From assembly GCA_900315105.1 (NCBI GenBank), contig OMXX01000031.1:1-35125 (forward strand): 35,125 nt of DNA, in the 5' to 3' direction. How positions within the stretch are numbered: the stretch's first letter is position 1; each line of letters begins with the position of its first letter. The DNA is from an uncultured Prevotellaceae bacterium (GTDB lineage Bacteria > Bacteroidota > Bacteroidia > Bacteroidales > Bacteroidaceae). The position numbers and the translations under genes were made by a program. Of the stretch, positions 3,623 to 33,181 are shown in pieces. The notes under the pieces were generated by a model, which was not told the origin of the DNA, did not search any database, and saw nothing but the letters and a program-made list of their open reading frames with translations.

Positions 3623-4205
3623 CACAAAAATCCTTATTGTTACCCGTTACTGCTAGGTTAGAAATGCCGTTGTACTTTCGTTCTGCCTTCGCTATGCCTT
3701 CGTTCTGCCTTCGCTTTTAGGGTTAATTGATGAACGGACTTGAAACGGACCTGAAACGGACCTGGAACGGACTTACAACGGAACTACATCGGAGGGAGTT
3801 GAAAGCTCACGCAGAATCTCGTTGAAGCCTGTATTTAGTTTTGGGGATGGCTTTGGAATGTTTTTCACATTTTTACATTGCTTTTCAAGCATACTGAATA
3901 AGCAGAATCAGCCAGAAATTTATGCTTATTGTTATGTTATTGAGACTATCAGCTGCCCATATTTTGCTCTCTAATTTTGTATAACAGCCTCATTATCTTT
4001 ACCTTACAAAGATCAATGGCACGCTCAACAAGCAAGCAAAATCCCGATCGATAACGGGTAACGGGTAACAATAAGGATTTTAGTGTATGGCCAAATTTTA
4101 CTGAATTATTCTAAGGAGTTTATATACCTTATTATATATAGAAATAATAAATATGGGCAGCAGCTTACACTATTTTTCTTATTGTTACCCGTTACCTGTT
4201 ATCGA
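3623..4205. repeat. Three copies of a TTATTGTTACCCGTTAC repeat in alternating orientation
   Basis: The 28-nt stretch 3623-3650 is the near-perfect reverse complement of 4058-4085. The stretch 4178-4205 is the reverse complement of 4048-4075 with one mismatch. The inner part has a 7-nt period (TAACGGG TAACGGG TAACAAT). The 3082-4467 gap is otherwise without a credible gene; the short frames in it show no recognisable protein features. Confidence 0.75.
3677..3798 (+). repeat. Two adjacent 11-nt-period repeat arrays
   Basis: Bases 3677-3720 are four exact-length units of 11 nt (TTCGTTCTGCC, TTCGCTATGCC, TTCGTTCTGCC, TTCGCTTTTAG). Bases 3733-3798 are six 11-nt units beginning AACGGA or ATCGGA (for example AACGGACTTGA, AACGGACCTGA). 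Related words recur at 27181-27224, 27239-27282 and 31197-31218. Confidence 0.85.
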
Positions 4206-4467
4206 CACGTTTTCAGGGATTATGTTGGCACAACAGATTCTATTAGGGGCAACCCATATCTGCCATAATCCACTCTCCTGATTTGAAAGCATTTTTCATT
4301 TTCGTTTATTTGCCTCCATTGTAGATCCATTTCAAGTCCGTTCCCTACGCCCCTTCCAACTCCCCAGAAAGGGAGGGATTAAAGATCGTACTATAGGCTA
4401 TTGAACAATCAAAAGGGCAAGGTAAAGGAATTCAAACTTATGATTTATTCACTTCATTATCAACAAT

Positions 4468-5582: not shown

Positions 5583-6728
5583 ATGTCGAATATTGTAATT
5601 AAAACTGTTAGCAATAACAAAGAACTCAAGGAGTTCATCAGATTCCATACCGAACTTTACAAGGATTCTCCAACCGATATCCCATATCTCGAAATGGGTG
5701 AGATGGACACGTTGAGAAGCGACAAGAACCCTGCTTTCGCTTTCTGCGAGGCGGAGTATTATATCGCTTATCGTGACGGGAAGCCTGTGGGACGTATTGC
5801 TGCTATCATCAATAAGCGTGCTAACGAGACATGGGGTCTGAAGGCTGTGCGCTTCGGATGGTTTGACTTCATTGACGACATTGAGGTTTCTACTGCCCTC
5901 ATCAATAAGGTGAAGGAGTATGGCAGGGCTCGCGGATTGGAGAATATTATCGGTCCGCTCGGCTTTACCGATATGGACCGTGAGGGACTTCAGGTAAGCG
6001 GATTTGACTATATGGCTTCTATGCACTCTAACCATAACTTCGCATACTATCAGGAGCACATGGAGAAGATGGGCGGGTTCACGAAGGAGAACGACTGGGT
6101 GCAGCTGGAGATTAAGGTGCCTGATGAGGTTCCTGAGAAATTCGCCAAGGTGGCAGCCATGATTGAGAAGCGCTATAACCTCCGTGCTCGCAAGATGACG
6201 AAGAAGGAGCTTGTTAGCGGTGGTATGGGCAAGAAGTTCTTCGACATCCTGAACACTTGCTATAGCCACCTGTATAACTACTCTCGTCTTGACGATGCGC
6301 AGGTTGACGACCTTATAAAGAACTATATATCACTTGCCGACCTGAACCTCATCACTATCGTGGTTGATGATAACAGGGATGGTGAGATGGTGGGATTCGG
6401 TGTCAGCTTCCCTTCTTTCTCTGAGGCATTGAAGAAGACGAAGAACGGCAAGCTGCTGCCTTTCGGATGGTATCATCTGCTGAAGGCTCTGAAGTTCCAC
6501 GACACGAAGACCGTTGACCTTCTGCTTTGCGGCGTGCTTCCGGAATACAGGGCAAAGGGTGCCAATGCCCTCATCTTCAACGACCTCATACAATGGTATC
6601 AGAAGTATGGTTTCGAGAAGGCTCTCGCCCTGCCGATGATGGAGACAAACGAAGGTGTGCTCGGACAATGGCAGTACCTCGACTCAAGAGAGGTTATGAG
6701 GCTGAGGAGCTATACTTCAAAGTTGTAG
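5583..6728 (+). CDS. GNAT-fold N-acyltransferase-like protein
   Basis: A 381-residue cytoplasmic protein. The N-terminal part contains CEAEYYIAYRDGKPVGRIAAIIN, the typical GNAT beta-strand pair, and GLENIIGPLGFTDMDREGL. The C-terminal part has LLLCGVLPEYRAKGANALIFNDLIQW, which looks like the acetyl-CoA-binding V-x-P-x-x-R/K-x-x-G segment of a second GNAT fold. This suggests a tandem-GNAT protein of a family widespread in Bacteroidetes and usually called hypothetical; the substrate is unknown. It has its own strong promoter. The stop TAG is the first triplet of a 7-nt repeat array (6726-6802) that fills the gap to parE. Confidence 0.75.
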   Translation: MSNIVIKTVSNNKELKEFIRFHTELYKDSPTDIPYLEMGEMDTLRSDKNPAFAFCEAEYYIAYRDGKPVGRIAAIINKRANETWGLKAVRFGWFDFIDDIEVSTALINKVKEYGRARGLENIIGPLGFTDMDREGLQVSGFDYMASMHSNHNFAYYQEHMEKMGGFTKENDWVQLEIKVPDEVPEKFAKVAAMIEKRYNLRARKMTKKELVSGGMGKKFFDILNTCYSHLYNYSRLDDAQVDDLIKNYISLADLNLITIVVDDNRDGEMVGFGVSFPSFSEALKKTKNGKLLPFGWYHLLKALKFHDTKTVDLLLCGVLPEYRAKGANALIFNDLIQWYQKYGFEKALALPMMETNEGVLGQWQYLDSREVMRLRSYTSKL

Positions 6729-6802
6729 GTTAGAGGTTAGAGGTTAGAGGTTAGGGTTTAGAGGTTAGAGGTTAGAGTTTAGAGGTTAGAGTTTAGGGTT
6801 TA
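6726..6802 (+). repeat. 7-nt tandem repeat, 11 units, between the GNAT-like gene and parE
   Basis: Eleven contiguous 7-nt units of the form GAGGTTA / GAGTTTA / GGGTTTA. The first unit (TAGGTTA) contains the stop codon of the upstream gene. The array ends 17 nt before the parE start. A six-unit array of the same word follows parE. Confidence 0.9.
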
Positions 6803-6819
6803 GAGAAAAATAGAAAACT

Positions 6820-15705: not shown

Positions 15706-17103
15706 TTGGCAAAGAAATATAAACTTAGATATGGACGTATAGCCGCAGCACTTGGTGTGCTCGCGGCTATCATCATAATCTTATATTTGGGTATCAGTTG
15801 GCTATTCAACTGGATTTACACTTCATGGGGGGATAAGGATGAAGCAATAGAACCCAAGGCGATTATAACTCCCGAGATGAGAGCCTGCGACACGATTATG
15901 GCACGACGTCTCGACAGTCTGATGAACATACCACAGAATCTCGACACCTCACTCATCGCCATCAGCGTATATGATGCGACAACCGAGTCACAGGTATATG
16001 AATTTCATGCAGACAAGAGTATGGCGCCAGCCTCTTGCATGAAGGTAGCTACAGCAGTCGCAGCCCTCAAAACTCTCGGAATGAACTACAAATATAACGT
16101 ATCACTCCAGATAAGAGGAGAGATGAAACGCGACACCCTCGTCGGCACCCTCCTCCTTGTAGCAGACGACGACCCGTTATTCGACGACTTCACACCTCTC
16201 ATCAATCAGATGAAGAGAAAGGGATTCTGCAACTTCAGGGGCAACGTAATCCTCAACCTTGCAAGAGAAGATACCCTAAAAGCGCATCCTACAGGCAAGA
16301 CATGGGATATTCCCTATCACAAGGCCCCTCTCCTCATGAAAGGCAGAGAACGCATCACAAAGCAGTTTATGGCGGCTCTTTCAGCTAACGGTGTATCCTT
16401 CAAGAAAGACAATAGCGTGAATTCCGCCAAGGCAAAGGGCAAATATGGCGATGGTAGATATCACTATGTGGCAAGGATTTCCCACGACATAAAGGAAGTC
16501 GTCACTCCTATGCTCATACATAGCAGCAATGTCAAAGCCGATGCCCTTTTCTATCATCTCGACTGGAAAAAGGGTATTCTTCCCCAAAGGGAGATGGTAT
16601 GGGATAAGATGCACTATACCGAGAAATTCTGGAACGAGATTCTCTCCCCAGAGGATACTACGAAGTGCCTTTTCCCACGTTCTGTAAAGCCTCGGCTTGC
16701 CTATAAGGACGGCTCTGGTCTTTCTCCTGACAACCTTCTCACCGCCAATACGCTCGTTGATATGCTCCGCTATGTCTATAACGATGAGATGCTGAAGAAC
16801 TACTTCATCAACGAGGCACTCGCCTCTCCTGCAAGTGCAAGAAGCGGTTCACTACTCACGAGAATGGCAAGACCGGAATATAGGGACAGGATCTTCGTGA
16901 AGACAGGTACTCTCGTCACAAAGGGCGGCTCGTCACTCTCAGGCTACCTTCAGGGGCGTGACGGCCATTGGTATATATTCTCTATCATCCATGAGGATTC
17001 TCCTGTGGCAGATGCCAGAATATTCCAAGACAGGCTCTGCAAGATGATGATGGGAAATAAAAGGGTACAGAGTAAAGTAGAAGGAGTAAAGAGTAAAGAA
17101 TAA
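15706..17103 (+). CDS. dacB: PBP4-type D-alanyl-D-alanine carboxypeptidase/endopeptidase
   Basis: A 465-residue penicillin-binding protein of the S13 family, which trims peptidoglycan peptides. An N-terminal membrane anchor (about 10-37) follows a basic start. The S-x-x-K motif is SCMK (Ser110, Lys113), the second motif lies in DGSGLSPDN, and K-T-G is at 399-401. The start is a TTG at 15706, 5 nt after lepB, because no ATG lies before the anchor. The final residues (about QSKVEGVKSKE) are encoded by a 7-nt repeat array that carries the stop codon and continues to the next gene, so a change in unit number would alter this tail. Confidence 0.9.
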   Translation: MAKKYKLRYGRIAAALGVLAAIIIILYLGISWLFNWIYTSWGDKDEAIEPKAIITPEMRACDTIMARRLDSLMNIPQNLDTSLIAISVYDATTESQVYEFHADKSMAPASCMKVATAVAALKTLGMNYKYNVSLQIRGEMKRDTLVGTLLLVADDDPLFDDFTPLINQMKRKGFCNFRGNVILNLAREDTLKAHPTGKTWDIPYHKAPLLMKGRERITKQFMAALSANGVSFKKDNSVNSAKAKGKYGDGRYHYVARISHDIKEVVTPMLIHSSNVKADALFYHLDWKKGILPQREMVWDKMHYTEKFWNEILSPEDTTKCLFPRSVKPRLAYKDGSGLSPDNLLTANTLVDMLRYVYNDEMLKNYFINEALASPASARSGSLLTRMARPEYRDRIFVKTGTLVTKGGSSLSGYLQGRDGHWYIFSIIHEDSPVADARIFQDRLCKMMMGNKRVQSKVEGVKSKE

Positions 17104-17153
17104 AGTGTAATGAGTAAAGAGTAAAGTAGAAAGAATAAAGAGTAAAGAAAAAA
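17063..17153 (+). repeat. 7-nt tandem repeat, 13 units, spanning the dacB 3' end
   Basis: Contiguous 7-nt units, most of them GAGTAAA, GAATAAA or GTAGAAA. The first five encode the last residues of DacB, the stop TAA is in the unit at 17098-17104, and the array ends 2 nt before the ATG of the lipoprotein gene. Confidence 0.9.
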
Positions 17154-17155
17154 AT

Positions 17156-18100
17156 ATGAAAACAAAACTATTATTTCTAATAACAGCAGTTTCTCTTTCT
17201 TTTGCCTCTTGCGGCAATAAGAATGCGGAGACAGCAGAACTCGAGAATGCTTTTGCATATCCTCTTGAGATGGAGGACTACGCTTTCGCTGATTCAAGTA
17301 AGTTTGCAAACATAGAGATCAAGGCTGTATTGCCGGTGGCAAAGGATAGTGTGTCGCAGGTTATTCGCGATTCCCTTGTCAATCTTGTCGGCAACAGCAT
17401 CCGCAGCTATCAAGGTGTGCAGATGGAGGACACCAAGCCGTTGATTGCAAAATATAATGGTGATGAAAAAGATGCCAAGAGCATGCTTGACTATTACTGT
17501 AAGGAAGTATCCAAGATGGTGAACTCTCAGGCAAAATATGAGTATGACGAAAAAGTAAAGTGTTGGGAAGAAGACACAACCCGCACCGATGAGCAGCGTA
17601 AAGAGTACAAGGAAGAAATAGCTCCTTGGGACTATACAATGAATGTAAGCAAAACATTTGAGGACTCTACATACGTTGTATTCTATGGCTCAGAATACGC
17701 ATTTAACGGTGGTGCTCATGGCGGTGTATTTGGTTTTGGAGGCATTACTTTCCGTTTCTCTGACGGAAGCATAGTTAAAGGTTTCCTAAAGGATAATGTC
17801 CTCAAGGACATGCAACCATTGCTCAAGAAAGGTCTCAAGGAGTATTTCAACGAGAATGCTGATGAGAAAATCAAAACCGATCAGCAACTCATGGAACAGC
17901 TCATGCTTCCTGAAGAAAGCAAAGGACTCATCCCATTACCTGCATGGATGCCTTGCCCAGACGAGAAAGGAAAAGGTCTTGTATTCACATATCAGCAATA
18001 CGAAATTGCTTGCTATGCCGTTGGTATGCCTTCATTCGTGCTTACTTGGGAAGAGCTCAAGCCATTCCTCAAGGAGGACATCCTTGAAGACATAAAATAA
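17156..18100 (+). CDS. DUF3298 (RsiV-like) lipoprotein
   Basis: A 314-residue lipoprotein. The signal sequence ends in the lipobox FASC, with Cys19 as the lipid attachment site. The body fits the DUF4163/DUF3298 pair: an N-terminal part with many charged residues, then VVFYGSEYAFNGGAHGG and FRFSDGSIVKGFLKD, and near the end FTYQQYEIACYAVGMPSF. DUF3298 is known from the lysozyme-sensing anti-sigma factor RsiV; whether this protein binds lysozyme is not known. It closes the plus-strand block that begins at acpP and shares the dacB array as its 5' region. Confidence 0.85.
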   Translation: MKTKLLFLITAVSLSFASCGNKNAETAELENAFAYPLEMEDYAFADSSKFANIEIKAVLPVAKDSVSQVIRDSLVNLVGNSIRSYQGVQMEDTKPLIAKYNGDEKDAKSMLDYYCKEVSKMVNSQAKYEYDEKVKCWEEDTTRTDEQRKEYKEEIAPWDYTMNVSKTFEDSTYVVFYGSEYAFNGGAHGGVFGFGGITFRFSDGSIVKGFLKDNVLKDMQPLLKKGLKEYFNENADEKIKTDQQLMEQLMLPEESKGLIPLPAWMPCPDEKGKGLVFTYQQYEIACYAVGMPSFVLTWEELKPFLKEDILEDIK

Positions 18101-18219
18101 AATCCACGCCACGTTTGCCTTATAAATAACGTGAATTCGATGACATGCGTAGCTTGGTGAGCCTTGCGAACAATTTTATATAAAACTGATTTCTTAATAA
18201 TTATACTGAGAAATAATAA

Positions 18220-18307
18220 GGGAAACGGATTTATATGATTTATCTGATAGCTGGCGCAGTAATATTTACTCAATTTTTTTCAGATAAATCAGATAAATCC
18301 GCTTCCC
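18220..18307. repeat. 28-bp imperfect inverted repeat, 32-nt loop
   Basis: Arms 18220-18247 and 18280-18307 pair over 28 bp with about three mismatches. The right arm contains two 9-nt units (CAGATAAAT twice). The loop holds a small dyad AGTAA-TAT-TTACT and a T-run. Bases 18312-18336 also resemble the inverse of 18208-18231, so alternative pairings exist. It lies between convergent genes. Nearby, 18152-18169 carries two 9-nt units (GCTTGGTGA, GCCTTGCGA) related to those at 32856-32909. Confidence 0.75.
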
Positions 18308-18341
18308 TCTTTAATCCGTTTCTTATCCATTATTTCCTCAC

Positions 18342-18420
18342 TATTTGTCCAGTAGTTGTCCAGTCGAGACTGGACAACTACTGGACAAATACTGGACAAG
18401 TACAGGACAGATAGTGTACA
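18342..18420. repeat. Perfect 24-bp palindrome made of an 11-nt repeat array
   Basis: Arms 18342-18365 and 18368-18391 pair perfectly over 24 bp with a 2-nt loop. The same stretch is seven 11-nt units (18344-18420): two in TTGTCCAGT orientation, then five in ACTGGACA orientation (the last two degenerate). The palindrome results from the change of orientation between units 2 and 3. No T-run follows. Confidence 0.9.
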
Positions 18421-18476
18421 AATATAGGAGGTTTCGTTAAGTTACAACCAATGTCAAACAAAGTTTGTGTAGATTC

Positions 18477-18947
18477 TCATTTTGTAAAGAAACCTCTTTT
18501 GTTTATAAACAAAACAAATGATATTGCGACAATATTCATTAATTGCATGAACAAACAAGGAATAAACACTTTTGCTGCCCCACCGTAACCGCAAATCAAA
18601 TGCATATTCTCCTCATACAAATCATATACAGGCAATTTGAATTGAGATACTATAGCAAATATGCAACAAGATATGATTTCAAACAAATAGAGTTTTTTGT
18701 TACGAACCTTATTTCTAAAGAATACATAGAATATAGCAAATGTTATGGCCGTTTCCAGACATAACTTTGATAGCATATAGATGAAATCACACGCATTGAA
18801 ACTATAAAGTATTAATCCGAGAAAGGTCATAGGATTAAAATTACTGTCCAATGTCCTGGAGCATAGCCAAACATTTAACAATGACAATAATGCTGCAAGA
18901 ATAAACTTTATGTATCGCATAATCATAGTGCTTTTTGCTAATTTCAT
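18477..18947 (-). CDS. Small polytopic membrane protein, unknown
   Basis: A 156-residue protein with four hydrophobic segments: about 10-30, 40-60, 62-82 (with 88-105 partly hydrophobic) and 128-150. Charged loops such as FRNKVRNKKLY lie between them. No family is recognised. Its start codon overlaps the stop of the preceding small lipoprotein gene as ATGA (18944-18947), so the two are translationally coupled and probably act together. A second in-frame ATG at residue 10 is possible. Confidence 0.65.
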   Translation of the reverse strand: MKLAKSTMIMRYIKFILAALLSLLNVWLCSRTLDSNFNPMTFLGLILYSFNACDFIYMLSKLCLETAITFAIFYVFFRNKVRNKKLYLFEIISCCIFAIVSQFKLPVYDLYEENMHLICGYGGAAKVFIPCLFMQLMNIVAISFVLFINKRGFFTK

Positions 18948-19363: not shown

Positions 19364-20365
19364 CTAACAGGTCTTGTCCTTATATACTACTTTGCTCGCT
19401 CCACTTGTAATCCACATAGCCTCAGGATGTTCCTTTACGAATGATTCTATGTGGCGAACGCGCTTGCTTTCCAATATCTCATCAACCGCAATAAGGATGC
19501 CGGTTTCCTCAACATCACCAAAGCCGTAGTTGATAGCTGTTCCGAAGAGCTTCATCGTTGGGCTTAGGTTCATATAGGCATTTACCAATGGCGGAATGTT
19601 GAAACCTAGGGCACGGATTCCTCCGTTAAGGATTCGGTAGTCTTCCTTGAAATCACGTCCGCAGAACACCTGTGCAAGCTCATTCTCAGGAGTCTCAAGT
19701 TCGAGAGGCTTGATAGGAGTGATGAGACCTTCTTTGTCGTCGAAATGCTTCTTGAGGAAGTATAATATAAGGTCACGACCAAATCGGATGTAGTTAGGGT
19801 ACATCGTCATTTTGCCGAAATAATATTTCATATTCGGATTGATGACGGTGAGTGCGCCAAGACCGTCCCAGAGGTTGTCGAGGGCAAAGAGGCTCTTAGC
19901 ACCCATCTTTGAGCTCTGGTACTCGACCGTTACCCATGAACGGCCAAGTTCAATGGTTTTCGGAGCATATTCCTTGATGAATTTCTCAGAGAAATGGAAC
20001 ATGTGGCTTGTAGCGAGGATAGGCTGCCCGTTCTCATCGTACTGCCATTGGTCACCCATGAGGTATCTGTAGCCGCCGATGATTTCCTGATTGTCAGGAT
20101 TCCACACGATGAGCTGCTTGTAGCAATTCTCGCATGTGTCGAACTCATCGATATCAACGCTCTTGCCAGTACCACCACCGGCAGTACGGAAAGCGATTTC
20201 TCTGAGACGACCTATCTCCTGCATTACATTAGGAGAGTCGTGAGCCGTAACGATAAAAATCTGGTTATTGCTCTTATTGGTCATGCGGAGCTGCTTCTCA
20301 GGAGTAAGTTCGCTGATAAGCAACTCTTTAGGAATTGGTTGTATTATTTCTTCTTCCTTCATCAT
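19364..20365 (-). CDS. glsB: GlsB-like glycine N-acyltransferase (GNAT/hemolysin-type)
   Basis: A protein of about 333 residues related to the OlsB/hemolysin-type N-acyltransferases. The pattern includes REIAFRTAGGGTG, VWNPDNQEIIGGYRYLMG, ELGRSWVTVEYQ and a long C-terminal half with FGRDLILYFLKKHF and GFNIPPLVNAYMNLSP. In Bacteroides, GlsB transfers a 3-hydroxyacyl group from ACP to glycine (making commendamide) and GlsA then adds a second acyl chain. The adjacent GlsA-like gene supports this. The start is placed at 20365 (or 20362): the in-frame extension back to a TTG at 20530 is encoded by GC-rich repeat DNA and is not protein-like. Confidence 0.85.
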   Translation of the reverse strand: MMKEEEIIQPIPKELLISELTPEKQLRMTNKSNNQIFIVTAHDSPNVMQEIGRLREIAFRTAGGGTGKSVDIDEFDTCENCYKQLIVWNPDNQEIIGGYRYLMGDQWQYDENGQPILATSHMFHFSEKFIKEYAPKTIELGRSWVTVEYQSSKMGAKSLFALDNLWDGLGALTVINPNMKYYFGKMTMYPNYIRFGRDLILYFLKKHFDDKEGLITPIKPLELETPENELAQVFCGRDFKEDYRILNGGIRALGFNIPPLVNAYMNLSPTMKLFGTAINYGFGDVEETGILIAVDEILESKRVRHIESFVKEHPEAMWITSGASKVVYKDKTC

Positions 20366-20370
20366 AACTC

Positions 20371-20546
20371 GGCCTCTCCCCCCGCCCTCCCCCGTAGGGA
20401 GGGAGCCGGAGCACCATAGAGGCATATTAATATATGAAACATTTATGTTTAATAGTAGAATGACCTTTCGCCTTCCGGCTCCCTCCCTACGGAGGGAAGT
20501 CCGATGTTGATAACATCGGAGTATGTGCAAAGCGGGGGGAGAGGCC
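20371..20546. repeat. Inverted pair of GC-rich palindromic elements in the glsA-glsB gap
   Basis: A copy at 20371-20410 reads GGCCTCTCCCCCC...GGAGCCGG. A second copy at 20464-20546 lies in the opposite orientation and is interrupted by a 34-nt segment (about 20499-20533) that contains the perfect palindrome TCCGATGTT-GAT-AACATCGGA (20500-20520). That inner palindrome occurs, slightly altered, at 4531-4551. The 191-nt gap contains no gene. Confidence 0.85.
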
Positions 20547-20556
20547 GCATTCTTAT

Positions 20557-21393
20557 TTATTTTCCAAGTTCGTATACCTGCTTTCTAACCCATTGAGCCC
20601 ACTCCTTTGGCTTTCGGCTCTTGTCGAATGTCTGCCAAGGGATAGGCTTCCCGATCTTCACAGAGAACGTATTATGCCTGTTCTTTATCATCTCATCAGG
20701 GAGATAAAGCATTGCCACATTCACTTTCAGATGGAGTTTCTTGCAGATATTTGCTATACGATAGAATTTATCAGAATTCTGTCCGCTGAAATGGATAGGC
20801 ACGATATCACGCTGAGCCTCTACGCTCTTTGTGATAAATGTCTTCTTCCATTCCAAATCCTGAATCTTACCGTTAATCTTTCGTGAACACAATCCAGCAG
20901 GAAACAATAGCAGGTTATGTTCGCTTGCAAATCCAGTTTCCAGCATAGCGGTTAAAGCCCTTTCCCTCTTGCTCGTGGTGTTATTCACAGGGATGCAGAG
21001 AGGGGCTAGTCCCGGAAGATTCATAAGGATATCATTGACAATCAATCTGAAATCATTGCCGTATTTTCTGCCAAGGATAGCACCAAGGGCAACACCGTCA
21101 CCACCACCAAGAGGATGGTTGCTGACAAAGGTATAGCGTTTAGCGTCATCCTTGTCGGGAAGGTTCTCAAAGCCCTCGACATTAAGATTCATGTCAAGGA
21201 ATTTAACACATTCCTCTAACCATTCGGCACCTTCTTGATTCCTACTTTTCCAGATGAATTCGTTCAACTCCTCCTGATGGACTGTCCTTTTAAGCCAGTT
21301 CACAAGGCTCTTAGGGATAAACTTCATCTTATCGCCCACTTTTGAGGCGAGAATCTTTTCGATGTCGATTGTATGTTCTGTGACTACGGCCAT
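20557..21393 (-). CDS. glsA: GlsA-like lysophospholipid-type O-acyltransferase
   Basis: A 278-residue acyltransferase of the PlsC-like fold. The catalytic motif is SNHPLGGGDG (His93 and Asp99, spaced H-x5-D instead of the usual H-x4-D), followed by a FPAGLCSRK motif that binds the phosphate or carboxylate of the substrate. In Bacteroides, GlsA adds an acyl chain to the 3-hydroxyl of the N-acyl-glycine made by GlsB. The AcpP supplying the acyl groups is encoded 10 kb away. A -7 box at 21418-21411 suggests a very short leader. glsB follows after 191 nt filled with repeats. Confidence 0.87.
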   Translation of the reverse strand: MAVVTEHTIDIEKILASKVGDKMKFIPKSLVNWLKRTVHQEELNEFIWKSRNQEGAEWLEECVKFLDMNLNVEGFENLPDKDDAKRYTFVSNHPLGGGDGVALGAILGRKYGNDFRLIVNDILMNLPGLAPLCIPVNNTTSKRERALTAMLETGFASEHNLLLFPAGLCSRKINGKIQDLEWKKTFITKSVEAQRDIVPIHFSGQNSDKFYRIANICKKLHLKVNVAMLYLPDEMIKNRHNTFSVKIGKPIPWQTFDKSRKPKEWAQWVRKQVYELGK

Positions 21394-21410
21394 TTGAATG
21401 CAAAATTAAC

Positions 21411-21418
21411 AATAAATT
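21411..21418 (-). promoter_or_regulatory. Probable -7 box of the glsA-glsB unit
   Basis: TAATTTTG on the minus strand, 17 nt before the glsA ATG, with only ATTG (21443-21440) at the -33 distance. The leader would be about 10 nt. Confidence 0.5.
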
Positions 21419-21466
21419 CTGAAATAAACTCTTTTTATCCCAATTATTTAGCAATAACGGTTATTT

Positions 21467-22717
21467 TTAACTAAAAACAAGAGTAAAGAGTCTGTCTTCT
21501 TTCAGTATCTCATTTGCCAACTGATAGATGTCCTCCACCTTGACGGCATCAATTCTCTCGTATAACTTGTCAATGCTTTTTAGAGTACCTCTGTGCAGGA
21601 ATTGCTTTGCCATTGAAATTGCATAGTTTTCCCTATTCTCAGATGCGAGGGCTATCTGTCCCTTTATCTGCCGCTTGGCATTTGAGAGGGCTACTGACGA
21701 GAGAGGGGCATTACAAAGTTTTGACAACTGACTCTTCACAAGTCTGATACAGCGATTCACATCATGCTGGTCACAACCGAAATAAACTGTCCAGAGAATA
21801 GAGTCCTTATAGCTTGTCATAATGCTTTCCACCGTATATACAAGACCTCTTTTCTCGCGAAGCTCAAGATTAAGGCGCGAGTTCATGCTCGGGCCTCCAA
21901 GGATATTGTTTGTAAGATAAAGAGGAATACGCCATTTCTCAAGATCCTTTCCGAAGGCCGTGCCTATCATCACATGAGCCTGATGAGTCTGTTGCTCATC
22001 GTCGTTAGCTCTCTTACCAGAAAGTTCCTCCTTCAGTCCTTCAAAACTCTTGTCACAGCGTATTATCTCCCCGTCCTTTTTCTTGTCAGAAAGCATTTCC
22101 AGTTTCTTTACCAACTGCTTGAAATCTATATCGCCATAGACATAGAAAACGGCATTATCTGGACGATAGAGCCTTTGTGTGAAGCGTTTACAATCCTCTG
22201 ACTTGAATCTTCTCACCGTATCCTTGTCGCCCAATACGTTATGACCGAGAGGATGCCCGTTGAAGATGCGGTTCTCAAACTCGTCATAGATTAGTTCTGC
22301 TGGAGAATCACGATAGCTTTCAATCTCATCGCATACCACCTCCATTTCCTTGTCAATCTCATGCTGTGGATAGGTGCTGTTGAAAACAATATCGGTGAGA
22401 AGCTTTACGGCTTTGCCAAAATGCTGACGAAGGATAGCTGCATAGTAGAACGTCTCTTCCTTGCTTGTGAAAGCATTAAGTTCGCCTCCTACCCTCTCCA
22501 AAGTGTTGATGACCTGAATAGAAGTAAGGTGGTCGGTTCCCTTGAAAGTCATGTGTTCACAGAAATGAGCCAGGCCCTCTTCGCCTGCAAGTTCATCGCT
22601 TGTTCCTGCGGCTACTGCATAACCGCAATAAACCACCTCTCCTTGGTAGGGAAGGTGGATTATTCTTAGTCCATTATCTAAAGTAAAAGTATTGTAGTTC
22701 ATTGAAAAATACGGCAT
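21467..22717 (-). CDS. M16 family zinc metallopeptidase
   Basis: A 416-residue protein with the inverted zinc motif H-x-x-E-H (HFCEH, His51, Glu54, His55) and the distal EVVCDEIESYRDSP region that supplies the third ligand. The C-terminal half contains NNILGGPSMNSRLNLELREKRGLVYTV, the typical substrate-binding domain motif. The length is that of a single M16 subunit. No signal peptide is evident, so it is probably cytoplasmic. A start at residue 6 (22702) is an alternative. It has a strong divergent promoter shared with the helicase gene, and glsA follows after 73 nt. Confidence 0.9.
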   Translation of the reverse strand: MPYFSMNYNTFTLDNGLRIIHLPYQGEVVYCGYAVAAGTSDELAGEEGLAHFCEHMTFKGTDHLTSIQVINTLERVGGELNAFTSKEETFYYAAILRQHFGKAVKLLTDIVFNSTYPQHEIDKEMEVVCDEIESYRDSPAELIYDEFENRIFNGHPLGHNVLGDKDTVRRFKSEDCKRFTQRLYRPDNAVFYVYGDIDFKQLVKKLEMLSDKKKDGEIIRCDKSFEGLKEELSGKRANDDEQQTHQAHVMIGTAFGKDLEKWRIPLYLTNNILGGPSMNSRLNLELREKRGLVYTVESIMTSYKDSILWTVYFGCDQHDVNRCIRLVKSQLSKLCNAPLSSVALSNAKRQIKGQIALASENRENYAISMAKQFLHRGTLKSIDKLYERIDAVKVEDIYQLANEILKEDRLFTLVFS

Positions 22718-22745
22718 TTGCCTCCATGTAATGGAATTATTAGTG

Positions 22746-22777
22746 CAAAAGTATGGAAAAAATCCGAAATTGACAAA
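22746..22777 (-). promoter_or_regulatory. Promoter of the M16 peptidase gene
   Basis: On the minus strand: TTTG (22777-22774), a 20-nt spacer and TACTTTTG (22753-22746). It is divergent from, and close to, the helicase promoter, whose -35 region overlaps it. Confidence 0.85.
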
Positions 22778-22795
22778 TTTTCCACCTATTTTTAT

Positions 22796-22803
22796 TAACT
22801 TTG
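22796..22803 (+). promoter_or_regulatory. -7 box of the DEAD-box helicase promoter
   Basis: TAACTTTG followed by CACTCGC. The -33 position has only an AAATTTT stretch (22775-22781). Since the -33 box of the divergent promoter falls here, RNA polymerase binding at the two promoters is likely mutually exclusive. Confidence 0.65.
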
Positions 22804-22814
22804 CACTCGCAAAT

Positions 22815-22849
22815 GGGTGTTGGGTGTTAGGTGATAGGTCTTAGTGGTC
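22815..22849 (+). repeat. 7-nt tandem repeat, 5 units, in the helicase leader
   Basis: Units GGGTGTT, GGGTGTT, AGGTGAT, AGGTCTT, AGTGGTC. Unlike the other 7-nt arrays it lies after a promoter and not after a stop codon. Confidence 0.7.
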
Positions 22850-22903
22850 AGCAAACACTCCTCCCCAAAGCGTGTACTCGTAAAAATAAAAACAGAAAAA
22901 TCA

Positions 22904-24850
22904 TTGAAGACATTCGAAGAACTTGGCGTTAGTGAGGAAATCCGTCGCGCCATTGAAGAACTCGGTTTTGCACAGCCAATGCCTGTGCAGGAGCAAACCA
23001 TCCCTTTCCTTTTGGAAAGCCAGAACTCTGATCTTATTGCCCTTGCCCAGACAGGTACAGGTAAGACCGCAGCTTTCGGTATTCCGCTTATTCAGAGTAT
23101 AGACCTGTCAAGCCGTGATACTCAGGCTATTGTCGTTGCTCCTACACGTGAGCTTTGCTTGCAGATAGCCGACGACATGAAGGATTTCGCAAAATACGTC
23201 AAGGGACTGCATATCAGCGCGGTCTATGGCGGAACATCCATCGAGAACCAGCGCCACGAGCTAAAACATGGTGCTCAGATTATCGTGGCTACCCCTGGCC
23301 GACTTATTGACTTGAAGAATCGTGGATATGCCAAGCTGGAGAATGTCCGTAAGATTGTGCTTGACGAGGCTGACGAGATGCTCAACATGGGCTTCTCAGA
23401 AAGTATCAACGAGATATTCGAGTCTATCCCAGAAGAGCACACCACCCTTCTTTTCTCGGCTACTATGTCACGAGAGGTTGAACGTGTGGCAAAGCAATAT
23501 CTGCGCGACTATCAGGAAATCGTAGTAGGTTCACGAAATGAGGGTGCAGAGAACGTAAACCACATCTACTATCTCGTAAATGCCAAGGACAAGTATCTTG
23601 CACTCAAGCGTATTGTAGATTACTACCCTCGCATCTATGCTATCATTTTCTGCCGTACAAAGGCAGAGACGCAGGAGGTGGCAGACCATCTTATTCGTGA
23701 CGGCTATAATGCAGAATCACTTCATGGCGACCTCAGCCAGCAACAGCGTGACCTCACGATGCAGAAGTTCCGCAACCACCTTACCCAGCTTCTTGTAGCT
23801 ACTGATGTGGCCGCCCGCGGACTTGATGTTGATGACCTTACCCATGTTATCAACTATGCTATGCCTGATGATATAGCTTCTTACACTCATCGTTCCGGCC
23901 GTACTGGCCGTGCAGGCAAGAAGGGCACATCTATCGCCATTATCCACACTCGTGAGAAGCATAAGATACGTGCTGTTGAAAAGCAGATAGGCAAGGAATT
24001 CGTGGATGGCACCTTGCCAACTCCACAGGAAATCTGTACAAAACAGCTTTTCCGTGCTATTGACGAGATAGAGAAGGTTGACGTAATCGAGGAGCAGATT
24101 GAGCCTTTCATGGCAGAGGTTCGCCGTCATTTCGAGTATGTTGACAAGGAAGATATTCTGAAGAAGATGGTTAGCCGCGAATTCGGACGTTTCCTCTCCT
24201 ATTATGCTGATGCTCCAGAGATTGAAAAGCCTGTCAGCAAGAAGGAGCGTGGAGAGTCTAGAGGTTCAAGGGATTCTAGAAATGCTAGAGCATCTAGAGA
24301 GCCAAGGGCCGTTCAGCAAGGCTACAAGCGACTTTTCGTCAATCTCGGAAAAGATCACGGCTTCTACCCGGGAGAGGTTATGCAATTCGTAAACCGTCAT
24401 GTTCAAGGACGACAGGAGGTCGGCCATATCGAACTTATGGCAGGATTCTCTTTCATAGAGGTACCAGAGCGTGATGCCAAGAAAGTGATGAAAGCCCTTG
24501 ACGGTACATTCTACAAAGGCCGTCAGGTAAGGTGTAATGAAGACCATCCTGACGGAAAGCCAGCTACTGGAGGTCGCGGAAGAGGCCGCAAGAGCGAATC
24601 TGAAGGTCGCAGTCGTTCAGGTCGTGGTCGCAAGGAAGATGCCGATTTCTCTCGTTTTGAAAAGAAGAGCAAGCGCAATAACTCCCGTAAGGATTTCGAT
24701 TCTGATGTAGCAGGTATGCCTGAGACGGGCGATTGGCGTCAGTTCTTCAAGAAGAACGATGACCAGAGTCGCAGACGTGGCAAGAAGAATACCGAAGAGC
24801 CTGATTTCTCAGAAGAGGGCTGGGCACGCAGAAAGCCAAAGAAGAAGTAA
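22904..24850 (+). CDS. DEAD-box ATP-dependent RNA helicase with DbpA-type RNA-binding domain
   Basis: A protein of about 648 residues that unwinds RNA, probably in ribosome assembly or cold adaptation. The helicase motifs are complete: Q motif, AQTGTGKT (I), PTRELCLQ (Ia), DEAD (II), SATM (III), ATDVAARGLDVD (V) and HRSGRTGRAGK (VI). A DbpA/CsdA-like RNA-binding domain follows (KRLFVNLGKDHGFYPGEVM...), then an Arg/Gly/Lys-rich tail. I place the start at the TTG at 22904, because homologues begin with KTFEELGVS. A GTG start at 22844 would add 20 residues encoded by leader repeat DNA. The linker ESRGSRDSRNARASRE is encoded by a 9-nt repeat array. Confidence 0.9.
   Translation: MKTFEELGVSEEIRRAIEELGFAQPMPVQEQTIPFLLESQNSDLIALAQTGTGKTAAFGIPLIQSIDLSSRDTQAIVVAPTRELCLQIADDMKDFAKYVKGLHISAVYGGTSIENQRHELKHGAQIIVATPGRLIDLKNRGYAKLENVRKIVLDEADEMLNMGFSESINEIFESIPEEHTTLLFSATMSREVERVAKQYLRDYQEIVVGSRNEGAENVNHIYYLVNAKDKYLALKRIVDYYPRIYAIIFCRTKAETQEVADHLIRDGYNAESLHGDLSQQQRDLTMQKFRNHLTQLLVATDVAARGLDVDDLTHVINYAMPDDIASYTHRSGRTGRAGKKGTSIAIIHTREKHKIRAVEKQIGKEFVDGTLPTPQEICTKQLFRAIDEIEKVDVIEEQIEPFMAEVRRHFEYVDKEDILKKMVSREFGRFLSYYADAPEIEKPVSKKERGESRGSRDSRNARASREPRAVQQGYKRLFVNLGKDHGFYPGEVMQFVNRHVQGRQEVGHIELMAGFSFIEVPERDAKKVMKALDGTFYKGRQVRCNEDHPDGKPATGGRGRGRKSESEGRSRSGRGRKEDADFSRFEKKSKRNNSRKDFDSDVAGMPETGDWRQFFKKNDDQSRRRGKKNTEEPDFSEEGWARRKPKKK
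24257..24301 (+). repeat. In-frame 9-nt repeat array inside the helicase gene
   Basis: Five 9-nt units: TCTAGAGGT, TCAAGGGAT, TCTAGAAAT, GCTAGAGCA, TCTAGAGAG. They are translated as Ser-Arg-x triplets in the linker between helicase core and RNA-binding domain. The word matches the dapB-lepB array. Because the period is a multiple of three, the frame is kept. Confidence 0.85.
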
Positions 24851-24864
24851 ATCGTAAGTAAAAA

Positions 24865-25422
24865 ATGGTTTTGCCAACATCGTTCTTCGGTCCAGTTTCG
24901 TGGTACGAGCAAATCGCTCGTGCCTCAGAGCCTATCTATATAGAGGCTCACGAGAATTTCCAGAAGCAGACTCTACGCACCCGATGCCGAATAGCAACGG
25001 CAAACGGCGTACAGACGCTTACCGTTCCTGTGTCCGGCTCTGGTTCTATCAAGGATATAAAAATATCCGACCATAACAACTGGAGGCATCTTCATTGGCA
25101 AGCCTTGGCATCTGCATACGGTTCTTCGCCTTTCTTTGAGTATTATGCCGATGATATTGCACCTTTCTTTGAAAAGAAATGGGACTTCCTCTTTGACTAC
25201 AACCTTGAGATTACCCATAAGATGTGCGAGTTACTCGATATACGCACAGAAATACGCTTGACGGACGAATACCAAGGCTGTTCCTTCAATCTGCATAATG
25301 ACAGCAAGCCCTATTATCAGGTTTTTCAATCACGTCATGGTTTCATTCCCGACCTCAGCATCCTCGATCTCCTTTTTAATATGGGACCAGAGGCGATTTT
25401 ACAATTAACAATTAATAATTAA
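24865..25422 (+). CDS. WbqC-like family protein
   Basis: A 185-residue protein matching the WbqC-like family: MVLPTSFFGPVSWYEQIARA at the start, IEAHENFQKQTLRTRCRI, TLTVPVSG, then WRHLHWQALASAYGSSPFFEYY. Members occur in O-antigen and cell-surface loci, and their activity is not established. It starts 14 nt after the helicase. The last residues (about LQLTINN) and the stop are encoded by a 7-nt CAATTAA array that continues 8 nt past the stop, so the tail is repeat-derived. Confidence 0.85.
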   Translation: MVLPTSFFGPVSWYEQIARASEPIYIEAHENFQKQTLRTRCRIATANGVQTLTVPVSGSGSIKDIKISDHNNWRHLHWQALASAYGSSPFFEYYADDIAPFFEKKWDFLFDYNLEITHKMCELLDIRTEIRLTDEYQGCSFNLHNDSKPYYQVFQSRHGFIPDLSILDLLFNMGPEAILQLTINN

Positions 25423-25429
25423 CAATTAA
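25402..25429 (+). repeat. 7-nt tandem repeat, 4 units, spanning the WbqC gene 3' end
   Basis: Units CAATTAA, CAATTAA, TAATTAA, CAATTAA. The stop codon of the WbqC-like gene (25420-25422) lies in unit 3. An ATG follows 1 nt after the array. Confidence 0.85.
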
Positions 25430-25550
25430 CATGCCTTTCGCGTTCTGGCTTCCTCTCTACGGGAGAGGGCGGGAAGAGAGGCCGAATTTTATTAACATGC
25501 CTTTCGCAATAAATACTATCAAAAAACGCCCCCTTGGGGGGATGGGGGTC
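25425..25550 (+). repeat. Repeat-bounded GC-rich palindrome and a second G/C palindrome at the SGNH gene start
   Basis: Bases 25425-25441 and 25491-25507 are an identical 17-nt direct repeat flanking 49 nt that contain the GC-rich palindromic element (CCTCTCTACGGGAGAGG core, 25433-25483). Further on, 25527-25550 holds CCCCC-TT-GGGGGG followed by ATGGGGG, which resembles another dispersed Bacteroidetes repeat and is translated as the start of the signal peptide. Confidence 0.75.
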
Positions 25551-26249
25551 TTTCTCACCCTATTCTTTGTCCTTATTTCTCTTTGCGCCAATGCGCAAAG
25601 CGATTCTCTCCGCATCTCTATCCTTGGCGACAGCTACTCAACCTTCTACGGATGTGTTGTTCCTGATACCAATGCCATCTGGTATTTCCCTGACGGCAAC
25701 AAAAACGTCCAAAGAGGTAATGATGTCAGAAAAGTAGAGCAAACCTGGTGGTATCAAGTCATCAAGCGTCTTGGTGCAAAGCTTGAGCGCAACAATGCCT
25801 ATTCTGGCGCTACGATATGCTATACGGGCTATCGTCCGAAAAAAGACTTGCCTCATGCCGACTATTCCGATCGTGCTTTTATCACCCGAAGCAACTGGCT
25901 TGGCAATCCTGACGTAATACTCGTTTGTGGTGCCACGAATGACAGTTGGTGTGATGCCCCTATCGGAGATTATGTCTTCGGAAACTGGACAGACAAGCAG
26001 CTTTATTCTTTCCGTCCTGCTATGGCGAAGCTATTGTATGACCTTAAAGGCAATTATCCCATGGCTCGTATCGTCTTTATTCTCAATAGCGAACTGAAAG
26101 ACGAAATCAACGAGTCGGTTCATACTATCTGCAAACATTACAACGTGCCTTGTCTTGATCTTCACAATATCGACAAGCAATGGGGACATCCTTCTGTTGC
26201 AGGAATGAAGGCTTTTGCCGATCAGGTTGTGGAGTTCCTAAAGAAGTAG
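25497..26249 (+). CDS. Secreted SGNH/GDSL hydrolase
   Basis: A protein of about 250 residues. The SGNH motifs are SILGDSYSTF (nucleophile Ser), the VCGATNDSW block and WGHPSVAGM with the catalytic His. Preceding them is a signal peptide, FLTLFFVLISLCANAQ. I place the start at the ATG at 25497; an in-frame ATG at 25431 adds 22 residues made only of repeat DNA, and an ATG closer to the hydrophobic core (within RPLGGMGVF) is also possible. It is probably a periplasmic or surface esterase; the substrate is unknown. Like the first SGNH gene at 125, its N-terminus overlaps dispersed repeats. Confidence 0.8.
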   Translation: MPFAINTIKKRPLGGMGVFLTLFFVLISLCANAQSDSLRISILGDSYSTFYGCVVPDTNAIWYFPDGNKNVQRGNDVRKVEQTWWYQVIKRLGAKLERNNAYSGATICYTGYRPKKDLPHADYSDRAFITRSNWLGNPDVILVCGATNDSWCDAPIGDYVFGNWTDKQLYSFRPAMAKLLYDLKGNYPMARIVFILNSELKDEINESVHTICKHYNVPCLDLHNIDKQWGHPSVAGMKAFADQVVEFLKK

Positions 26250-27160: not shown

Positions 27161-27180
27161 AATATATTGCATCCGTCATG

Positions 27181-27282
27181 CCTTCGCTCTCCCTTCGCTA
27201 TGCTTTCGCTTCAGGTTCGCTTCCCTCGATGGAGCAAGAACGGACTTACAACGGACCTATAACGGTATTAGAACGGACTTAC
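27181..27282 (+). repeat. Two 11-nt-period arrays
   Basis: 27181-27224 is four 11-nt units of a TTCGCT word (CCTTCGCTCTC, CCTTCGCTATG, CTTTCGCTTCA, GGTTCGCTTCC). 27239-27282 is four 11-nt units of AACGGAC type. This is the same pair of words, in the same order, as at 3677-3798. Confidence 0.85.
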
Positions 27283-27314: not shown

Positions 27315-27592
27315 TTTTTTAGAATTAAACGACAAACATATACATGGGGCGAAATGCACATGATAACATATTGTGTATCAGTTTTTTGTATGCATGTATG
27401 TGTTTGCTTAACACGTACATAAGTCGTACATAACACATACATGTTTGGGGGTTCAATTAAAAAGTATGACGACTTATGTATATGTTATGTATGTGTTAGA
27501 CAAACACGTACATGCTCTTAACTTATTCTTTATCAGTATATTTACTGCTGATTTTAGCCCCCATGTACGTGTTTGTCGTTTAATTCTAAAAA
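27315..27592. mobile_element. MITE-like inverted-repeat element of about 280 nt
   Basis: Arms 27315-27350 and about 27557-27592 are inverted copies of about 36 nt (core TTAGAATTAAACGACAAACA) with few mismatches. The interior, about 205 nt, holds two further 11-nt arrays (27410-27442 AACACGTACAT type, 27474-27506 TTATGTATGTG type) that are roughly inverse to each other. It has no coding capacity. The right arm ends just before the stop codon of the BspA-like gene. No flanking target duplication was clearly seen, so mobility is an inference. Confidence 0.55.
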
Positions 27593-27595
27593 ATT

Positions 27596-30500
27596 TTATT
27601 TCACTAATATCTTCTTTCCATTTATGATATTCACGCCTTTCTTGGTCATATTGAGCCGTTGACCAGAGATTGAGAATATCTTATCTGCTGAAATCGTTGG
27701 AGTTCCCTTAACTGCATCAATACCTGTTGTTGCATCTTCTACGATAGTGAAATTCTTCCATTCATCAGCAACCTCGTATTTAGCCTTACAGCCAGGAAGT
27801 ACATGAAGCGTACCATATTTCGAGAATGTCCATCCGCTTAATTTTTGTGGAGTTGTGGTAAGATTAGTGACAGAGGTGAGACCTGAGCAAGCAACGAAAG
27901 CCCGATCTCCAATACTCGTCACAGAGTTGGGTATAGTGACAGAGGTTAGGCCTTTGCAACCAGAGAAAGCCCGTTCTCCTATACTCGTCACAGATTCAGG
28001 AATAGTGATTGAAGTTAGACCAGAGCAGTTTTTGAAAGCCAGATCTCCAATACTCGTCACACCATCAAGAATAGTTATAGAAGTAATATTAGAACAACCA
28101 TTGAATTGTTGGCTAACATTTGTTATTACCTTACCTATAGCGATAGAGGTGAGACCAGAACAACCATCGAAAGCTTTATCTCCAATACTCGTCACAGAGT
28201 TAGGGATGGTGATTGAGGTGAGACCTGTACAACCATAGAAAGCTTCACTTCCAATACTCGTCACAGAGTTAGGAATAAAAGCGTTTTTACATCCTATAAT
28301 CAAAGTATTAGATTCTGTTTCTATAATTGCGTTACAATCGTTTCTACTATCATAGTTTTTATTCCCTTGTTCTACAATTATAGAGTTAAGACCTGTACAG
28401 CCAAAGAAAGCAGAACCTCCAATACTTGTCACAGAATTAGGGATAGTGATGGAGATGAGACCAGAACAACCACGGAAAGCTTTATCTCCAATACTCGTTA
28501 CGGAGTTAGGGATTGTGATTGAGGTGAGACCTGAGCAACCATTGAAAGCTTCACTTCCAATACTCGTTACAGAGTTTGGGATAGTGATGGAGGTGAGACC
28601 TTTGCAACCAGAGAAAGCCTCATATCCAATACTCGTCACTCCATCAAGAATAGTTACAGAAGTAATATTAGAACAATCACTGAATAGTCGACTGGAATTT
28701 GTTATTGCCTTACCTATAGCGATAGAGGTGAGTCCTGAGCACTTCTGGAAAGCAGAACTTCCAATACTCGTTACGGAGTTTGGGATTGTGATTGAGGTGA
28801 GAGCTGAGCAAGCAGAGAAAGCAGAACTTCCAATACTCGTTACGGAGTTTGGGATTGTGATTGAGGTGAGACCTGTGCAACCTGAGAAAGCTGATCCTGC
28901 AATGCTCTTTGTTCCATCCTTTATAACAATCTTTGTGTTTTTTGGCATAGTTCCTTTGTATTTATAAAGAATCTGACCTATATAGATTATGCCATCTGGT
29001 TGGTTGTTATACCAACTCGTTCCATCAAAAGCAGAACCACTAATACTCGTCAAAGACTCTGGGATAGTAATAGAGGTAAGACTTGAACAACCTTTGAAAG
29101 TCTCGTATCCAATACTCGTCACAGAGTTTGGGATAGCAATAGAGGTGAGAGTTGAGCAGTCATAGAAAGCATAATCTCCAATGTACGTTACAGATTCTGG
29201 TATAGTGATAGAAGTGAGACCTGAGCAATTATAGAAAGCATAATCTCCAATCCCCCTCACAGAGTTTGGGATAGCAATAGAGGTGAGACCTGAGCAACCA
29301 GAGAAAGCTGCATTTCCAATCCTCGTCACAGAGTTTGGGATAGCAATAGAGGTGAGACCTGAGCAACCATAGAAAGCTGCATTTCCAATCCACGTCACAG
29401 AGTTTGGGATAGCAATAGAAGTGAGACCGGAGCAATACTGGAAAGCATAATCTCTAATAATCGTCACGGAGTTGGGAATTGTGATTGAGGTGAGGCCTGA
29501 GCATACATTAAAAGCATAATCTCCAATACTCGTCACGGAGTTGGGAATTGTGATTGAGGTGAGACCAGAACAACCAGAGAAAGCAGAACTTCCAATACTC
29601 GTCACGGAGTTAGGGATGGTGACAGAGGTGAGACCAGAGCAACCAGAGAAAGCTCCACCTCCAATACTCGTCACAGATTTAGGGATAGTGATTGAGGTAA
29701 GACCGGAGCAACCTCTGAAAGCTTCATTTCCAATACTCGTTACAGAGTTTGGGATAGTGATGGATGTAAGACCAGAGCAACCTGAGAAAGCACTATTTCC
29801 AATACTCGTCACAGAGTTAGGAATTGTAATGGATGTAAGACCTTTGCAACCCTCGAAAGCCAAACTTTCAATACTTGTCACTCCATCAAGAATAGTTACA
29901 GTAATATTAGAACAATTACGGAATGATTTGCCAATATTTGTTATAACCTTACCTATAGTGATTGAGGTGAGGCCAGAGCAACCCTCGAAAGCGTTACTTC
30001 CAATACTCGTCACAGATTTTGGGATAGTGATTGAGGTGAGACCAGAGCAACCCTCGAAAGCCAAACCTTTAATACTCGTCACAGAGTTAGGGATTGTGAT
30101 TGAGGTAAGACCTGAGCAACCAAAGAAAGTCCAACCTCCAATACTCGTTACACCATCAAGAATAGTTACAGAAGTAATATTAGGACAATTAGGGAATTGT
30201 CGGCTGACATTTGTTATTGCCTTACCTATAGCGATAGAGGTGAGACCTGAGCAACCAAAGAAAGCCATCTCTCCAATACTCGTCACAGAGTTAGGGATTG
30301 TGATTGAGGTGAGACCTGAGCAACCATCGAAAGCATGATTTCCAATACTCGCTACGGAGTTAGGGATGGTGATGGATGTGAGGCCAGAGCAACCAGAGAA
30401 AGCGCTACTTCCAATACTCGTCACAGACTCAGGAATAGTGATTGAAGTGAGTCCTGAGCAATCATAGAAAGTTTCATCCTCGATACTCGTCACGGAATTA

Positions 30501-30820: not shown

Positions 30821-31008
30821 AGTCGGAAATAAATGTTCATGGCAGACTCCTAAAGCCATACAATCGGTTATGTCTCTATTTTTATCTCATATAATGAAAA
30901 ACGTGGGGAGTCAACAATACATCAAATTGTCATGGAAATAAATGTAAGTCAACGTTTTCAATATACGAGAGTGGATGTTTCCACTATTACCTTTTGTTAT
31001 TATGTTTG

Positions 31009-31108: not shown

Positions 31109-31218
31109 TCAGTTCGACGAAAATTAAACTCCTTGCAAGTCCTAAGCAATTCCCTACCAAATCCTATGCAAATCCCATTTTTCGCCTATTCATAGGAACG
31201 GACTTATAACGGACCTAC
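31109..31218 (+). repeat. TTCGACGAA motif followed by 11-nt-period arrays
   Basis: A TTCAGTTCGACGAA copy (31109-31122) precedes four 11-nt units (31135-31178: GCAAGTCCTAA, GCAATTCCCTA, CCAAATCCTAT, GCAAATCCCAT) and two AACGGAC units (31197-31218). The gap 30821-31356 otherwise holds only promoters and the 12-nt palindrome TTGACGCGTCAA at 31256-31267. Confidence 0.8.
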
Positions 31219-32909: not shown

Positions 32910-33009
32910 AAAAATAAAGCCAATTTCAGGCCCACTAAATCCCTCTTATATGGGGACATCAAAAAGCGCAGAGATTAAGAGAACAGAGGATATATACCTC
33001 AAGAAACTC

Positions 33010-33138
33010 CGCTGTTTTACCGCTGTTTTACCGTTATTCCTCCGTAGATGCTCCATCGATACTCCATCGATACTCCATCGATGGTCCATCGTTTCGATGG
33101 AGGATCGATGGAGGACTGATGGACTATCGATGGAGTAT
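33010..33138. repeat. 11-nt-period array with orientation switch forming a long hairpin
   Basis: From 33010 there are two identical units CGCTGTTTTAC, then transition units. From 33051 there are eight units of 11 nt: four of CTCCATCGATA type and then four of CGATGGAGGAT type. The switch at 33094/33095 makes a dyad with a 6-bp core (CCATCG-TTT-CGATGG) and 15-bp perfect outer arms (33058-33072 and 33125-33139). The last two units also belong to the region duplicated at 32002. Confidence 0.9.
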
Positions 33139-33181
33139 CTTAAGAGTTTCAAAGGAAGAACTTACTTTTCCATACAATTTC

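Follow-up and report, generated by a model that had tools for sequence, protein, structure and literature searches.

An intergenic array of 11-nt units with a perfect 24-bp dyad was analyzed in the window, that is, in the whole 35,125-nucleotide stretch of DNA from an uncultured Prevotellaceae bacterium. The array and its relatives have a defined period, constant spacing, units split into core and spacer, inverted arms, species-specific words, a preferred position relative to genes and dispersed copies. We interpret the feature as a DNA-level array of phased sites for a putative DNA-binding protein, which would act as a roadblock or boundary at gene 3' ends, and put the probability of this reading at roughly 0.45. 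The many intergenic arrays of Prevotellaceae, in which a word recurs about once per helical turn and differs by species, hint at a DNA-binding system rather than at an ordinary terminator.

The focal array, its neighborhood and its dispersed copies

The features of the focal region were as follows (strand is given for the two flanking genes).

17156..18100, + strand: left flanking gene, DUF3298 with a PdaC-like stretch
18304..18366: TCC arm (lag-11 segment), degenerate outer units kept in the 11-nt register
18305..18458: segment orthologous to L048 19186-19033 (89% identity), partly similar to dispersed copies in genome G218
18342..18365: left arm of the perfect 24-bp dyad
18344..18420: seven 11-nt units, core TGTCCAG (left two units) or CTGGACA (right units)
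18366..18367: 2-nt loop of the dyad, GA (TG in the orthologue L048, which is G218:C2)
18368..18391: right arm of the perfect 24-bp dyad
18369..18424: GGA arm, about five units
18477..18947, - strand: right flanking ORF, convergent, without a Pfam match

The seven 11-nt units at 18344-18420 and the perfect 24-bp stem with a 2-nt loop (18342-18391), both reported in a preliminary description of this DNA, were confirmed. The same description had the array dividing into units without remainder. The units themselves stood, but the flip from TCC to GGA at the center is a step of 13 nt and not 11, so that this division is partly a matter of framing. The phased stretch reaches beyond the seven units, from about 18304 to 18424. 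The dyad is the longest perfect palindrome in the window when loops of up to 11 nt are allowed, the runner-up having 12 bp. L048 likewise carries a perfect stem of 24 bp; it has T-A where the window has G-C at one pair, and its loop is different. Named by its word, the array is the ACTGGACA array.

For REARRANGEMENT, the neighborhood is kept in relatives at 78-99% protein identity. The block 19364-26249 is inverted in L048 relative to the window, L045, L046 and L049, and L047 is inverted over at least 20557-26249, up to the end of the available sequence. In the window both ends of this block fall in array-bearing gaps. Inversion breakpoints inside arrays were considered and rejected: the break between L046 and L047 lies ~450-570 bp past the nearest array. 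Because many gaps carry arrays and the break is hundreds of bases off, an association of arrays with breakpoints does not count as a finding, and arrays are not claimed as the cause. Misassembly of one MAG at repeats is a possible origin of the block inversion. Gap contents also shift: positions 10937-11580 of L049, in the gap downstream of the DUF3298 gene, match window 3604-4226 (82%), a non-orthologous gap.

Two further dispersed repeats were observed near the focal array. The stretch 18215-18316 is an element of ~100 bp whose halves are imperfect inverted copies of each other and which includes a 9-nt repeat; it adjoins the array in the window and lies ~900 bp away from it in L048, and at least 12 similar places exist in G001, the nearest genome used for genome-wide counts (40 of 83 candidates scored). 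The second repeat (18122-18176, ~55 bp) has around a dozen matches in G001.

Elsewhere in the window, the following 11-nt arrays were listed.

3668..3793: inverted 11-nt array, TTCGTTCTGCC arm then AACGGACCTGA arm
27168..27281: inverted 11-nt array, CCTTCGCT arm then AACGGACTTAC arm
27405..27442: short 11-nt array
31135..31178: short 11-nt array in TCC phase, then a GGA run
33009..33139: inverted 11-nt array, CTCCATCGATA arm then TCGATGGAGGA arm

Tandem arrays of 7 nt lie between codirectional genes at 6727-6805 and 17060-17148, and 27596-30859 encodes a BspA-type leucine-rich-repeat protein (LRR_5) with 69-nt repeats in the gene.

The focal array was matched in three of 100 genomes of the genus (G082, G083 and G084), and G001 had no match. 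Among 398 genomes searched, two perfect cores per arm with free spacers were found at four loci in two genomes (one in G083, three in G218). Spacer complementarity between the arms is seen in these four loci, a sample selected for perfect cores, as well as in the window, the variable base being G in the window and T, T, G and C in the others. Fifteen loci with the window's word were then chosen without regard to stems, leaving out C3 and C10 of G218, which carry another word, and further G218 places with two mismatches. Six of them have stems of 20-24 bp and nine have stems of at most 8 bp; one of the six long stems is the window's orthologue, so that five are independent by locus. At six of the 15 loci both arms have the same inner 18-mer, as compared with 6.4% between loci (p 2e-4) and with 13.6% inside a locus (p 0.01). 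For G218:C35 the second unit on the right, with one core mismatch, is misassigned, which touches this identity and not the stem length. The perfect stems fit either selection acting on the dyad or a process that copies one arm onto the other.

Four G218 copies (C2, C28, C35 and C83) have pairwise 203-280 bp in common, array plus flanks, and partly also with the window; in a second group C25 has 175 bp in common with C99 and 243 bp with C34. Since these loci have common flanks, these subfamilies have spread. Neither clean terminal repeats nor a target duplication could be seen by eye in the G218 alignment. In 400 kb of G001, 34 array loci have for the most part unique flanks, with 15 matching flank pairs of which some lie within one neighborhood, and a single MITE family was therefore rejected.

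Arrays in related genomes

G001 has 23% of sampled 31-mers in common with the window. Intergenic DNA was taken as DNA outside ORFs of at least 100 aa, not from annotation. The lag-11 excess in many gaps that the preliminary description had named as support was found: 400 kb of G001 contained 45 intergenic lag-11 arrays and the window nine, against 1.0 and 0.0, respectively, in shuffles that preserve only first-order Markov composition. The E. coli control yielded no arrays at any period within its only 9,246 intergenic bases.

GGA was the most phased of the 64 trinucleotides at 11 nt in the window and near relatives (104, the mean at other lags being 11.4). In G001, a pattern of four GGA spaced by 11 nt had 185 matches on one strand and 148 on the other; the reversed control had 12 and 17, and four GGA spaced by 10 nt had none. 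At least one match to the 11-nt pattern was present in 60 of 100 genomes searched; genomes rich in it are few among these 100 (e.g., G050, G064, G071, G072, and G028), and GGA at 10 nt has many matches in G009, G050, G064, G098 and others. Several array words can occur within a single genome. In 400 kb of G001 there are six perfect stems of at least 14 bp, all of them outside arrays, so that a perfect dyad is not a general feature.

The spacing of the cores was nearly invariant. Exactly 11 nt separated 173 of 183 consecutive core pairs (pairs 7-15 nt apart), with two pairs at 10 nt and two at 12 nt, in a count based on eleven hand-picked words in which a few loci are counted twice through the overlap of L048 and L324. 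GGA was phased in 48 of 66 arrays, the core being constant and positions 7, 8, 10 and 11 variable. Identity between adjacent units was 0.51-0.66 at these four positions and 0.78-0.94 at the others in a profile phased on GGA, which favors positions 4-6; with a motif-blind phase, divergence was still uneven across the eleven positions (z 11.6, 40 arrays). The TCC arm precedes the GGA arm in 14 of 15 run pairs, and in seven of eight in another count. A universal center spacing was rejected: it is 14 nt in six of 14 run pairs and ranges from 13 to 72 in the rest.

Periods and words were compared across 30 sampled species of the genus, after loci picked near pattern hits (L093, L095-L101, L104, L105, L108, L109, L145, L147, L166, L169, and L176) and loci under 5 kb had been dropped. 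A total of 151 arrays had periods of 10, 11 or 20-23 nt, where shuffles gave 3.0; 128 of the 151 were arrays of 11 or 22 nt, and 23 of the 30 species had at least one array of such helical period. Periods of 12-19 and 24-30 nt gave 30 arrays against 7.4, and periods of 5-9 nt gave 129 against 6.4. Arrays of 7 nt alone numbered 85 against 1.0; this class being as abundant, repeats in these genomes also form outside the helical periods. Some of the 13 arrays of 21 nt may represent 3 x 7 nt.

Eight of these genomes (G017, G011, G025, G046, G062, G076, G085, and G077) contained 49 arrays of 22 nt and one each of 21, 23 and 24 nt. The 22-nt units are dyads (at least 6/7 pairs) in 51% of the 49 arrays, as compared with 12.9% of shuffled units. 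The top intergenic words were species-specific across the ten species compared; TCGCCCAA occurs 17.0 times per 10 kb of intergenic DNA in G062 and at most 3.7 times in nine other species. In 17 other genomes of the order (16 from other families and one from another genus of the same family), 11 arrays of helical period were found against 0.6 in shuffles, distributed over six of the 17. G105, a further genome that was picked by its GGA hits and therefore lies outside the 17-genome count, likewise has the inverted form of 11 nt, with ACTGGAGTTGT as its word. At L097 1272-1354, L100 7333-7406 and L114 6481-6566, 22-nt arrays consist of near-perfect palindromes plus a short spacer, with a separate word in each of the three species.

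Relative to genes, 11-nt arrays occupy 16 of 39 convergent, 19 of 168 codirectional and 6 of 42 divergent gaps (window, L045-L049 and G001 sample) and favor convergent gaps (16/39 vs 25/210 others, p 4.7e-5), in counts that include homologous loci (L046, L047, and L049) and are not fully independent. Arrays of 22 nt, in 13 of 68 convergent, 25 of 192 codirectional and 5 of 74 divergent gaps, follow the same trend without significance (13/68 vs 30/266, p 0.10).

Interpretation and alternative explanations

A short core, here CTGGACA and in the clade mostly built around GGA/TCC, recurs once per helical turn, with spacers free in sequence and fixed in length and with two oppositely oriented arms. 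In the proposed mechanism, a putative DNA-binding protein would read the species-specific word and align on one face of the DNA, and the aligned protein may form a nucleoprotein block. Because 11-nt arrays favor convergent gaps, such a block would most likely act at gene 3' ends as a roadblock, supercoil boundary or domain boundary. Comparable roles at 3' ends are thought to be played by REP/BIME clusters. In the window, G218 and G083, the two innermost units of each arm can be perfectly matched, and the resulting central dyad of 20-24 bp could also extrude as a cruciform.

The fixed length of a spacer of free sequence, the helical periods, the species-specific words and the dyads fit sites of a protein that binds one face of the DNA. 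The preliminary description had suggested that a protein would always meet the word on the same DNA face. The dominance of helical periods and a spacing that is almost always 11 nt while the spacer letters vary are consistent with this part of the suggestion, the protein itself being putative. Periods of 10, 21 or 23 nt, or of the 7-nt class, are found in some species. The 7-nt class counts against phased protein sites in general, as do the non-significant convergent enrichment of 22-nt arrays, the restriction of strong GGA phasing at 11 nt to few species, the rarity of the focal array (3/100 genomes) and the fact that the perfect dyad is not general. On a wider scale, Prevotellaceae and some other Bacteroidales might carry fast-evolving intergenic arrays with a species word per one to two helical turns, read by a co-evolving DNA-binding system that forms phased filaments; we advance this as a tentative and somewhat doubtful generalization.

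The arrays could instead form the core minisatellite of a repeat resembling a MITE, a non-autonomous mobile element without a host role that a transposase would have spread, similar to BrickBuilt. This explanation is unlikely in our view but is to be taken seriously. In its favor are the flanks common to the two groups of G218 copies, the shifting gap contents exemplified by L049, and the inversion of the gene block adjoining the array in L047 and L048. It agrees poorly with the mostly unique flanks in G001 and with the G218 alignment, and it does not by itself explain a strict spacing of 11 or 22 nt with unrelated words. A mutational by-product, in which slippage and template switching at hairpins would copy arms and multiply units whose function is unselected, appears distinctly improbable: slippage alone would not be expected to yield uneven divergence over the unit positions, so few spacings of 10 or 12 nt (4/183) or a preference for helical-turn periods over 12-19 nt. 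It would nevertheless account for the bimodal stems of the fifteen loci, which look as if arms were homogenized in bursts, for the raised identity of the inner 18-mers and for the coexisting 7-nt class.

An element acting at the RNA level, namely a hairpin in a transcript with a role in termination, in 3'-end protection or as an RNase III substrate, is very unlikely. The 3'-biased placement, the strong stem at the focal site and folding z values below -3 at nine of 52 array loci would agree with it. However, the median z over the 52 loci was -0.9 and that of the focal array -2.2, and of 26 arrays located between codirectional genes, only 12 had a sense strand that folded better than the antisense strand. 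The RNase III role put forward in the preliminary description is thus unsupported, because no RNA strand asymmetry was found. The 2-nt loop of the focal stem also argues against an RNA role: such a loop is unable to close in RNA, so that a hairpin formed there would be reduced to 23 bp around a loop of 4 nt. Forms of 10 and 23 nt, moreover, misfit an A-form turn of 11 bp, and a search of the window against Rfam at the gathering threshold gave no match. An intrinsic terminator, in which a T run comes after a GC-rich stem, was rejected since neither strand shows, by eye, a T run behind the focal stem.

Should the arrays prove to be phased binding sites, a common family of bacteria would possess an undescribed chromosome-wide DNA-binding system whose word changes between species. 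It could then be tested how word and reader co-evolve, what separates convergent Bacteroidales genes and why array-carrying gaps differ so much among close relatives. Even if the arrays are selfish or mutational, their strict quantum of 11 or 22 nt in unrelated words calls for a mechanism, and to our knowledge none has been described.

Comparison with described repeats

A CRISPR array consists of identical repeats with unrelated spacers of ~30 nt and was rejected, the present units having 11 nt and few variable positions drawn from a small pool. A phage origin of the word was rejected as well. Three CTGGACA at 11-nt spacing matched 98 viral stretches; all 81 matches in the 80 stretches examined lie inside ORFs of at least 80 aa and therefore look like coding coincidences, and 63 of the 81 represent two strings.

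As far as text of the open-licence literature was accessible, it contained no account of Prevotella arrays of 11 or 22 nt. The closest known systems are the BrickBuilt minisatellite-MITE and REP/BIME, and neither fits fully. According to the available part of its description, BrickBuilt is a minisatellite within a MITE of Porphyromonas gingivalis with 19 copies in one strain, built of a spacerless tandem unit of 23 nt with leader and tail subunits and small inverted-repeat ends (PMC4596501). As far as that text goes, the present arrays resemble it in occurring in Bacteroidales, between genes, as spacerless tandem units with conserved and non-conserved sites, in dispersed multiple copies per genome and with a limited host range. 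Flanks common to both sides of the array in some G218 copies are a further likeness. As regards a leader and tail with small inverted-repeat ends around the array, four G218 loci have common flanks, and most of the 34 loci in 400 kb of G001 have none. In contrast to the 23-nt unit of BrickBuilt, the present unit has 11 nt in the focal clade or 22 nt, and the arrays are inverted about a center or built of dyads, with several words in one genome.

Like the present arrays, REPs have species-specific words, mosaic inverted units and 3' placement. In the part of the literature on REP/BIME that was accessible, these elements, linked to RAYT (Y1 transposases), are intergenic palindromic repeats (PMC3733652), and this the present arrays have in common with them. 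By the same partial account, the REP unit is a palindrome of 20-40 bp, whereas the present unit has 11 nt, or 22 nt (half of them dyads) in other species, and helical phasing, which marks the present arrays, is not among the features described there. A REP/RAYT system was rejected: Y1_Tnp was found in seven of 12 array-bearing genomes and not in the other five, among them G085, G025 and G064 (each 99% complete), and no array stands consistently beside Y1. At L133 2134-2276, an 11-nt array lies ~300 bp downstream of the sole Y1 transposase-like match of G001.

Direct repeats of the heptamer TAACTGA are reported from Beggiatoaceae, Cyanobacteria and five Bacteroidetes in the accessible sections of one study (PMC4679880). 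Like the present arrays, they are abundant short tandem words between genes, and a regulatory role was proposed for them; they differ, as described in those sections, in having 7 nt, in being direct and in lying, in the main genome, for the most part immediately before start codons, and are nearer to the 7-nt class of the present genomes. Finally, the available text of two reports describes genome-wide sequence periodicity near 11 bp, which in E. coli is concentrated between genes (PMC516772, PMC7537859). As presented there, it is a dinucleotide periodicity of ApA/TpT, whereas the present arrays are discrete and have GC-bearing cores; a period near the helical repeat is common to both.
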